A stretch of 35,042 bases of DNA from Desulfurococcales archaeon (GTDB lineage: Archaea > Thermoproteota > Thermoprotei_A > Sulfolobales > Desulfurococcaceae). The notes under the pieces were generated by a model. The model saw only the letters and a program-made list of their open reading frames with translations, did no database searches and had not been told where the DNA came from. Shown piece by piece: positions 10,771-21,678 of this stretch. Numbering within the stretch: position 1 is the first letter of the stretch; every line of letters starts with the position of its first letter. Location: the NCBI GenBank assembly GCA_021163115.1, contig JAGGXK010000054.1:1-35042 (forward strand), in the 5' to 3' direction. The position numbers and the translations under genes were made by a program.

Positions 10771-11492
10771 AAAAGATCACGGCTTACGGATTACTTATAC
10801 CTGCTAGGTATATTGCTATTGATTTTAGTGCAAATGTTATTGTCACTTCTGTTGTTGATCTTCATAGATATTAATGAGGATAGTATTGACTGCTTACTAG
10901 TTAATTATGATAAAAGCGAAGCCATGTTGTCCTCAATAAAACACGATATTAGGAGGATACGTACCAGTTATAGGAGGACTAGGAAGAGTATTCAAGAGAA
11001 GGTTAAGAACCCTAGGTTAAGGATTAAACTTCTAGCTAAGTATGGTTTACGTGAGAGGAAGCGTGTAAAGGATAGATTGAAAAGAAGATAACCACGCTGC
11101 TAGCAGAGATTGCCAGGGAATATAACGCTGACCTAGTTAGGGAGAACCTCAAGGACTTGAAACTCGACAGTAGAAAGAAGAGTAAGCAACTAAACTATAG
11201 GCTATCCACTTTTCCATACCACAGGTTCATAGAGAATATTGACTATAAATTTAATGAGTTGGAACTAGGCGTGCTAGAGGTTGATGCGAGGAAAACATTC
11301 ATCACCTGCCCAATATGTGGCTACGTGGATAAGAGGAAGAGAATAAGTAAAGAAGTATTCAGATGTGGAAGATGTGGTTTCACATTTAACGCTCAGTATA
11401 CTGCTTGTCTCAACATTTTCTCCCGCCTCGATGACAGTGAAATAACCATCAGGAGCGGGAGAATGTATCTAATCTCCCATAAGGCTGCATGA
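10771..11492 (+). pseudogene. tnpB: Decayed IS200/IS605-type TnpB (5'-truncated, at least two frameshifts)
   Basis: Fragments in different frames: KITAYGLLIPARYIAIDFSANVIVTSVVDLHRY (RuvC-I-like); IRRIRTSYRRTRKSIQEKVKNPRLRIKLLAKYGLRERKRVKDRLK; KITTLLAEIAREYNADLVRENLKDL (RuvC-II-like E); TCPICGY...FRCGRCGFTFNAQYTACLNIFSR (Zn finger / RuvC-III region). Confidence 0.85.
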
Positions 11493-18447: not shown

Positions 18448-20469
18448 ATGATGTATTTTAAAACTTATATAATTGTTCAACGAGATCCCTATACTAGGTG
18501 TATATGTCTTATGAATGAGGAGCCAGTGGGTCGAGGAGTAATTGTTTACACAAGGATAATAGAAGACCCCTTTAAAACTATTGATAGGAGAGGTTATAGA
18601 TGGTTTGGAACCCTTGTTGTAGAGATAGATAAGCGTAGAGTACACTTACTAATGACGGGGAGTATATCCCAGTGGTTTAGTAAAGGAGAGAAAGTAAAGA
18701 TCATGTTAAAGAACGAGCCGAGGAAAATAGAGGATGTGTGGATACTTGGTTTCAACGACTATGAGCTATATAGAATATGGGGCGAGGATCAGGTAAAGGT
18801 ATGGCCGCCCTGGTCTAGTGTGACAAGGCTTCCCCGATACGACCCTCTTGGAAAGAAGACTGTTTATGAATATACCGTGGTTGCACGTGAAGCAGTTAGT
18901 GAAGAAGACTATATGGAGATTGTAGGGCTTGAACAATACCATTATGCAAGCAAGGAAGAGATCGTGGCTATATGGAGATGCCCTGTCTGCGGAGAATATG
19001 TTGAAGCAAATATCCAGCCACTATGCCCAAGAGACAATATCCCTATGAAGCTACAGGAGATAAGAGGGAGTCTTCCAAGTAGTAGATTCCTTGTCTTAGA
19101 ACTAGTTAATAGGAGAGAATATGAACCAAGAATCGTGGGGTATGTTCGGGTTGATACCCCTATTCCTCTCATGAATAGGAGATTACCTGATGGCAGTATT
19201 GAGAAAATGATTAGAGAGAAAGTTTTCCCAAGCCACTGGTTCCATCCAACATACTGGCCAACAGCCTTGGAGGAGAAGAAACCCATTCTAAAACGGTATA
19301 GGGAACTATATAACTTATATAGATCGCGGAGACTTGCAAGAGCTATAGTTGGAGAGGAGGTAAGTAGCCAGGCACTACGTATAGCTAATACTGCTGCAGC
19401 AAGAATTGCAAGAGCTGTTGTTCATCCAGACTATAGAGGCGATGGATTAGGTGTTCTAGCTGTTAAAATGGCTATTCAGTGGATCAAGGAACGTAGAATA
19501 CCAGAGATGAAGAAGGAGAAGCATATTGTAGAGACAATAGCTATGATGGCTCGTTATAACCCATTTTTTGAGAAAACAGGATTCTACTACATGTGGGATA
19601 CTGGAAGCGGACGACCTGTACTAATGTATCCCTTAACAAGTACTGCTAGGGAGAGAATAGAGTCTTTCCTAAGAAGTGATAAGTATGCCAAACTACATGG
19701 AGGTAAACTGTATAGATCTAGATATGGTGTTGTAGAAAAACTTTCAGCCCCAATCGAGATAAAGAATCTAACCAAGATCTTCTCTAGCACACTAGATGTT
19801 GATAGATTACCTAGAGAGTTAAGAGATATATTAATAGCCTTTGGCGTTGAACGAAGAACAATCGAGAAATATATACTTAAGGATGTCAACTTAAAGATCA
19901 ATCCCGGGGAGATCGTGATTGTTGTTGGTGCCAGTGGGACAGGGAAGACAACATTTCTCAGAATGATTATTGGAGCAACTGATCCTAAGAGAAAAGATGA
20001 TCCAAGGTATAAGCCTTCTAAGGGAAAGGTTATTGTCCCAGAGAATGTAAGGATAGCATACCTACTGCCAGGTGAGAACGAGCCTGTTTTTGGAGCTGAA
20101 ACCCTACTTGAGCATCTATCAAGCAAAATAGGTGACCCGGCAGCTGCTGTTGAAACACTAAATATGGTTGGCCTAGGTGATGCAGTATTCTATAGAGCTA
20201 GGTTTAACGAATTATCCACAGGCCAGAAAGAGAGAGCTAAGCTAGCTAGTTTGCTTGCAGAGAAGCCAAATCTACTCATCATTGATGAGTTCACCGCCCA
20301 TCTAGACACATTAACTGCACAGAGAGTAGCTAGGAAGATGGGCGTCTTAGCTAGGAAGGCAGGGATAACACTTATTGCAGCAACCAACAGGCCCGAAGTA
20401 ATAGATGTATTGAACCCAGATAAACTCATCTATATAGGCTATGGAACAGCCATTGTTAGACGTTTATAG
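18448..20469 (+). CDS. ABC-type ATPase fused to Zn-ribbon and GNAT acetyltransferase-like domains (COG2401-like)
   Basis: CPVCGEY...LCPRDN ribbon; RIARAVVHPDYRGDGLGVLAVKMAIQW GNAT motif; GASGTGKTTFLR Walker A; LSTGQKERAKLASLLAEKPNLLIIDEFTAHLD signature/Walker B. Confidence 0.9.
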   Translation: MMYFKTYIIVQRDPYTRCICLMNEEPVGRGVIVYTRIIEDPFKTIDRRGYRWFGTLVVEIDKRRVHLLMTGSISQWFSKGEKVKIMLKNEPRKIEDVWILGFNDYELYRIWGEDQVKVWPPWSSVTRLPRYDPLGKKTVYEYTVVAREAVSEEDYMEIVGLEQYHYASKEEIVAIWRCPVCGEYVEANIQPLCPRDNIPMKLQEIRGSLPSSRFLVLELVNRREYEPRIVGYVRVDTPIPLMNRRLPDGSIEKMIREKVFPSHWFHPTYWPTALEEKKPILKRYRELYNLYRSRRLARAIVGEEVSSQALRIANTAAARIARAVVHPDYRGDGLGVLAVKMAIQWIKERRIPEMKKEKHIVETIAMMARYNPFFEKTGFYYMWDTGSGRPVLMYPLTSTARERIESFLRSDKYAKLHGGKLYRSRYGVVEKLSAPIEIKNLTKIFSSTLDVDRLPRELRDILIAFGVERRTIEKYILKDVNLKINPGEIVIVVGASGTGKTTFLRMIIGATDPKRKDDPRYKPSKGKVIVPENVRIAYLLPGENEPVFGAETLLEHLSSKIGDPAAAVETLNMVGLGDAVFYRARFNELSTGQKERAKLASLLAEKPNLLIIDEFTAHLDTLTAQRVARKMGVLARKAGITLIAATNRPEVIDVLNPDKLIYIGYGTAIVRRL

Positions 20470-20663
20470 TCAACTCCTTAAATTCTTCAATAAGCTCGTG
20501 TGTATATTACTCCTTGCTTATAGCTAGAGCTACTAATGGAGGTTCTTCACTGACAGGCATAACCCATGATGCAGCCATGACATTATATCCGCCCTGCTTC
20601 CTCCTTGTAACAATTAAATATACTGGACGTGGATGTAGGACATAGTAGTTCTCTCTATCTATA
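20462..20663 (-). pseudogene. Inverted N-terminal half of a flavin-reductase-like gene
   Basis: - strand: IDRENYYVLHPRPVYLIVTRRKQGGYNVMAASWVMPVSEEPPLVALAISKE*YTHELIEEFKELTIN; flavin-reductase N-terminal pattern with an internal TAA. Confidence 0.85.
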
Positions 20664-20999
20664 GTTGTTGGAGAAGAACACCTAGATATAGTATATAGAG
20701 CTGGCACTATTACTGGGAGAAATACTGATAAATGGAACATGCTGGGACTGAAGCCCCTTGAATCCATATCTATTTCTACACCAGGAATAGATGGAGCATA
20801 TGGTGTTATAGAGTGTAAACTACAAGACAAGATTGATGCTGGTGAATGTTCTATATTTATTTGTGAAGTATTAACTATAAGAGTTGATAAGGAGAAGTAC
20901 ACAAGGTATGGATGGGATTTCAAGAAAACAAAACTACTACATATAAGGGGTAGAGCTTTCACTTTACCAGGACGCCTGGTATTTGCTGAGAGAAGATAA
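20664..20999 (+). pseudogene. C-terminal half of the same flavin-reductase-like gene
   Basis: + strand: VVGEEHLDIVYRAGTITGRNTDKWNMLGLKPLESISISTPGIDGAYGVIECKLQDKIDAGECSIFICEVLTIRVDKEKYTRYGWDFKKTKLLHIRGRAFTLPGRLVFAERR. Confidence 0.85.
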
Positions 21000-21051
21000 T
21001 AGCTTAACAATATAATACTGCTTATTAATCTAATTTTTCAGGAGATACCAT

Positions 21052-21678
21052 ATGTATAGAGTATCAAAGAAGCTTGTTCTCGCCACCAAAAGTCCGAGAA
21101 GAATAGCTTTGCTAAAGGAGCTTGGAATAGACTTTCTTGTTATTAAGCCGAGAACCTACGAGAGTATACATAGGGCTCAGCCTAGATCAATAGTCTTAGA
21201 TAGTGCTAGGCGTAAAGCCTACTCAGTACTAGATAGTGTCCCATATAATGCAGTCGTAGTTGCTGCAGACACTATCATTGTAGATGACAGCAATAGAGTT
21301 TATGGTAAGCCATCAAGCCTATCAGAAGCAGCAAGAATATTAAAAATACTTAGAGGCAAGTGGCATCGTGTACTAACCGGTGTTTATATAGTTGATGTAC
21401 CTGATAGGCTAGAGGACTTCTTTATCTCTGAAACAAAGGTTAAGCTAAGGAATTTCTCTGACAAGGAACTAGAGGTATACTTGTCTTCTCTAGAGTCCTT
21501 AGATAAAGCTGGTGCTTATGCTCTTCAGGGAATTGGCAGGTTTCTCGTAGAGGAAATTATTGGTGATCCATATAATGTTGTAGGTTTACCTCTATCTAAG
21601 CTTTATGAAGTATTATTAAAACATGGTATAGACCTGCTTAAGATGGCGGTGATGAAGAAAGTTGTTGGAGCCCCTTGA
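21052..21678 (+). CDS. maf: Maf-like nucleoside triphosphate pyrophosphatase
   Basis: LVLATKSPRRIALLKELGIDF; VVAADTIIVDD; GKPSSLSEAARILKILRGKWHRVLTGV. Confidence 0.93.
   Translation: MYRVSKKLVLATKSPRRIALLKELGIDFLVIKPRTYESIHRAQPRSIVLDSARRKAYSVLDSVPYNAVVVAADTIIVDDSNRVYGKPSSLSEAARILKILRGKWHRVLTGVYIVDVPDRLEDFFISETKVKLRNFSDKELEVYLSSLESLDKAGAYALQGIGRFLVEEIIGDPYNVVGLPLSKLYEVLLKHGIDLLKMAVMKKVVGAP

Follow-up and report, generated by a model that had tools for sequence, protein, structure and literature searches.

Gene content and arrangement of the locus

The window analysed here is the whole 35,042-nucleotide stretch of contig JAGGXK010000054.1 from the Desulfurococcales archaeon assembly GCA_021163115.1. 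Between an intact gene for a COG2401-like ABC/GNAT protein and an intact maf gene, it carries the two halves of a flavin-reductase-like gene on opposite strands (Table 1). Translation of the N-terminal half gives IDRENYYVLHPRPVYLIVTRRKQGGYNVMAASWVMPVSEEPPLVALAISKE and YTHELIEEFKELTIN, separated by a single in-frame TAA and running from IDRENYYV to EELTIN; the C-terminal half begins VVGEEHLD and reads VVGEEHLDIVYRAG...GRLVFAERR up to its stop. ORF calling returned only two antiparallel open reading frames at this locus, one of 167 amino acids (minus strand, 20507–21010) and one of 86 amino acids (plus strand, 20739–20999).

Table 1. Coordinates of features at the disrupted flavin-reductase-like locus, given as positions in the window.
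Feature	Position	Strand	Evidence
COG2401-like ABC/GNAT protein gene, upstream, intact; last codons and stop now on inverted segment	18448–20469	+	
8-bp inverted repeat TCTATATA/TATATAGA, arms set 25 and 28 nt beyond the breakpoints	20429–20436 and 20692–20699		
Left breakpoint region; ~22–28 nt present in the ancestor lost, among them the reductase ATG	20459–20464		Spacing relative to G003, G001 and G014; fine scan
Inverted segment, 202 bp; N-terminal half of flavin-reductase-like gene (codons 20662–20462)	20462–20663	-	PF01613 57.8 bits alone; optimum of re-inversion scan
Internal TAA stop in N-terminal half	20507–20509	-	Read from translation
Right breakpoint; 2 bp inverted microhomology (AC/GT) with left breakpoint	20661–20666		Breakpoint repeat scan
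C-terminal half of flavin-reductase-like gene with natural stop	20664–20999	+	PF01613 50.4 bits alone; 59–62% identity to intact relatives
maf, downstream, intact, conserved neighbour	21052–21678	+	PF02545 166.8 bits; same place in G003

Searches against the PF01613 profile (length 153, gathering cut-off 27 bits) placed the two halves, each of which matches on its own, at profile positions 4–60 and 62–149. When 20462–20663 was re-inverted, the halves joined in frame with zero gap and gave a single match of 122.6 bits across positions 4–149. Local alignment to the intact protein of a related single-contig genome, G003, scored 398 for the sequence as it stands and 619 after re-inversion at 20462/20663. 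The best score among 483 alternative inversions on a coarse grid was 590, while a fine scan reached its maximum of 619 at 20462/20663, 20461/20664, 20460/20665 and 20459/20666 alike; no inversion in the scan aligned better to the G003 relative than 20462/20663. The split-and-flipped arrangement is present in the sequence, far beyond chance.

A first-pass annotation, made from the letters of the window, had assigned the N-terminal half to the minus strand and the C-terminal half to the plus strand from 20664, and had held that re-inversion would restore the order usual for flavin reductases, in frame. Both claims stand: the profile search that it proposed for the re-inverted translation scored above either half, and the alignment improved on what the halves achieve alone. 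It was also right that re-inversion leaves the COG2401-like gene a stop, as this gene ends properly in both configurations, with ...AIVRRL-stop as it stands and ...AIVRL-stop when re-inverted.

Elsewhere in the window, a short plus-strand ORF at 11157–11492 looks by eye like the end of a TnpB-like protein with its C-terminal zinc ribbon and is probably a transposon remnant.

Comparison with related genomes

In G003 the gene order COG2401–reductase–maf–radical SAM matches that of the window, with a co-oriented reductase in one intact frame of 185 codons. COG2401 also lies directly upstream of the reductase in G001 and G014, and in all three genomes the first codons of the reductase abut or overlap the COG2401 stop. 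Comparison of the COG2401–maf region among relatives, suggested by the first-pass annotation, thus yields an intact collinear gene in G003. Searches of 40 genomes (the window's own included) with each half showed that the antiparallel split is absent from the other family genomes searched; wherever another genome held close matches to both halves on one contig, the halves were adjacent and on the same strand (tables read by eye). An antiparallel arrangement shared with relatives, which would have counted against a disrupted gene, was therefore found in no searched relative. The window's genome is the sole member of its genus among those compared.

Amino acid identity to G003 and G008 is 67% and 64% for the N-terminal half and 59% and 61% for the C-terminal half, so that each half is about equally similar to the two relatives, which fits a single gene passed on vertically. 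The family alignment comprises 22 loci, mostly from archaeal metagenome-assembled genomes named Staphylothermus, Thermogladius, Thermosphaera or Desulfurococcaceae/Desulfurococcales, with one bacterial outlier, and the split arrangement occurs in none of the 22. A profile of the intact orthologues matches structures 2r6v and 1eje; no NCBIfam equivalog reached its cut-off with the reductase, and the C-terminal half alone gave no match in the GTDB species collection. With its full-length profile match after re-inversion, the gene resembles the PF01613 Flavin_Reduct family, including archaeal FMN-binding PH0856 (2r6v) and 1eje, but differs from them in being disrupted. Together, the profile scores and the intact, co-oriented orthologues in the same context support all three parts of the first-pass reading: the identity of the gene, its break through the inversion of some 200 bp, and its decay.

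A contig break in G008 near the homologous position was considered and set aside as an ordinary assembler break. The two contigs overlap by exactly 127 identical nucleotides, the joined gene is intact and the upstream contig is labelled with ~3x coverage.

Lesions and state of decay

Three lesions disable the gene and make it a pseudogene: the inversion, the internal TAA and the loss of ~22–28 bp at the left breakpoint. The TAA, reported in the N-terminal half by the first-pass annotation and located here at 20509–20507 on the minus strand, falls at a variable position of the family; because G001 carries Gln there, the stop plausibly arose from CAA. An ATA had also been reported where a start would be expected. 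The start is indeed absent, but the change amounts to more than ATG to ATA, as ~22–28 nt have been deleted together with the start codon. By hand count, the codons for GYGTA in COG2401 and for ID in the reductase are separated by 39 nt in G003, 36 nt in G001 and 33 nt in G014, against only 11 nt, without a start codon, in the re-inverted window; this difference points to the loss of the ATG and first codons at the left junction, in a deletion whose length is not divisible by three. Near the C-terminus the sequence is one codon shorter than in relatives (TK-LLH), an in-frame gap that may or may not matter for the gene.

The re-inverted sequence thus has the whole-domain match of a PF01613 member, above the gathering score, and lacks an intact frame able to give a functional protein. 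Given the inverted half, the internal TAA and the lost start codon, we class it as a pseudogene of this family; the TAA and the missing start mean that re-inversion by itself would not yield a working gene. The remaining codons are well preserved, which in a pseudogene means that the loss is recent on this scale: in an alignment with 18 relatives, 46 of 48 near-invariant columns are kept, the two departures being a missing N-terminal Tyr and a change from Ser to Thr.

The same reductase has been lost independently in G013, where a C-terminal piece remains, interrupted by an internal TGA (L023 1227–1541, on G013:C1), and the N-terminal half was not detected anywhere in the genome; the gene is intact in the congener G022. 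An intact divergent paralogue survives in the window's own genome (G000:C22:5734-6240), with 25% identity to the C-terminal half and 42% to the N-terminal half. In the light of the G013 loss and this paralogue, the reductase gene is evidently one that a lineage can lose. Genus g5 and G002 yielded only homologues of a more distant kind.

Breakpoints and repeats

The absence of long inverted repeats at the breakpoints, remarked on in the first-pass annotation, was borne out: the breakpoints have just the 2 bp microhomology in common, and within 40 nt of them no exact inverted repeat is longer than the 8-bp pair listed in Table 1. An inverted repeat at least as good is expected by chance in ~10% of random placements, and recombination between these arms would carry the end of COG2401 into the inversion. 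Repeats near the breakpoints were rejected as a cause, being at chance level or wrongly placed.

Control for assembly artefacts

As a control, 1.6 Mb of G003 (1564 non-overlapping ORFs) was compared with 738 kb, in 61 contigs, of the 1.38 Mb of the window's genome. All close opposite-strand pairs were listed with no overlap filter and judged by eye. A match of at least 60 bits was obtained in the 738 kb for 537 G003 ORFs, and no other local inversion was seen among these 537 comparable genes, which cover about half of the genome. The sole true opposite-strand split was the reductase described here, which came up twice, once for its own orthologue as query and once for the G003 paralogue. In the remaining close opposite-strand pairs the two matches overlap on the query, and by eye these pairs resemble neighbouring paralogues; a plus-strand BLAST alignment reaching into 20514–20663 was dismissed as weak chance antisense similarity. 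Mid-gene stops in conserved genes, judged by eye, numbered ~3 in 335 apart from this gene. With no other inversion and with mid-gene stops this rare, a chimera-rich or error-rich assembly is unlikely.

Origin of the arrangement

The inverted segment is the reverse complement of the order seen in relatives, and its flanks are collinear with theirs. We consider it probable that the locus records a one-off, break-repair-like microinversion accompanied by a deletion in a dispensable gene for a PF01613-like FMN-binding protein, now a pseudogene. In the ancestor the reductase would have lain between COG2401 and maf, its first codons abutting or overlapping the COG2401 stop in the manner of G003. One event would then have flipped ~202 bp bearing the N-half codons from ID to EFTIN, with the loss of ~22–28 bp, start codon included, at the left edge; the likeliest cause would be misrepair of a broken segment, or a template switch that used almost no homology. 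As COG2401 retained a stop, the reductase alone would have been lost, and the nonsense change to TAA could have come before or after the inversion. The two halves, the conserved context, the intact relatives and the three lesions are seen directly, whereas the single event, the repair mechanism, the order of the lesions and the loss of function are inferred.

The main competitor is an artefact of assembly or amplification, in which a chimeric read or contig joined a 202-bp piece backwards while the gene in the cell is collinear. We regard this as unlikely, even though the assembly is fragmented, a draft of 103 contigs at 70.6% completeness: it demands two junctions 202 bp apart plus the 22–28 nt loss, rather than one chimeric join, in a genome where the control revealed no second local inversion, and it leaves a re-inverted gene that still has a TAA and no start codon while mid-gene stops are rare elsewhere. 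That the two antiparallel ORFs are real small genes, separately expressed and built from the old halves, is highly improbable. Both frames are open, but the minus-strand ORF is mostly antisense of the C-terminal half plus 42 N-half codons ending at the TAA, the plus-strand ORF begins 25 codons into the C-terminal half, half of an FMN-binding domain would be unlikely to fold, and no searched relative has such an arrangement.

The first-pass annotation had left phase variation open as one of three readings, and this finds no support here. A reversible inversion turning the reductase on and off has precedent in the intragenic invertons of prokaryotes (Chanin et al. 2024, cited in PMC11868660), and the 8-bp repeat lies near the breakpoints; its chance-level quality, however, and the mere 2 bp that the breakpoints themselves share, leave the segment without the inverted repeats at both ends that mark an inverton. 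Neither orientation is an intact gene, since inversion would not undo the two further lesions, and 20462–20663 appears in the opposite orientation on no contig of this assembly and in the present one in no other family genome searched. We therefore give a phase switch very little credence, and equally little to a repeat-less reversible or recurrent inversion acting on the N-terminal half, with populations that contain both orientations.

Relation to known systems

The microinversion reading has a counterpart in human–chimpanzee comparisons, where microinversions of 17–33 nt are reported to be mostly clean and to have flanking inverted repeats of 3–75 nt (PMC8755829). Like them, the present case is a short reverse-complemented segment recognised by comparison with relatives; unlike them, it spans 202 nt, has 2 bp of microhomology and lost 22–28 nt at one edge. 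Less homology, together with a deletion, makes end-joining-like repair or a template switch with loss the better guess. Intragenic invertons (PMC11868660) likewise invert within a coding region, but the breakpoints here lack inverted repeats and nothing points to reversibility.

The locus offers a base-resolved archaeal case of a gene lost through a small repeat-less inversion and a deletion. Since ORF calling reports nothing here but a pair of antiparallel ORFs, a pseudogene search restricted to one-strand stops and frameshifts would overlook it. In other respects the case is one of ordinary decay in an enzyme gene that is dispensable, with no switch.

Other observations in the genome

A gene at L066 6239–7502 (G000:C41) has an internal stop and a change of frame relative to its G003 homologue and is likely another pseudogene. 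Two in-frame inserts relative to G003 appear intein-like: one of ~1.5 kb, judged by eye, after GGFGTGK in a V/A-type ATPase subunit A-like gene (L074 5677–9057, G000:C49), which begins CILPGTPV and ends VIYHN, and one of ~1.4 kb in a gene that by eye is RtcB-like (L063 5468–2610, minus strand, G000:C38), which begins CLTPDTRV and ends IIVSN.
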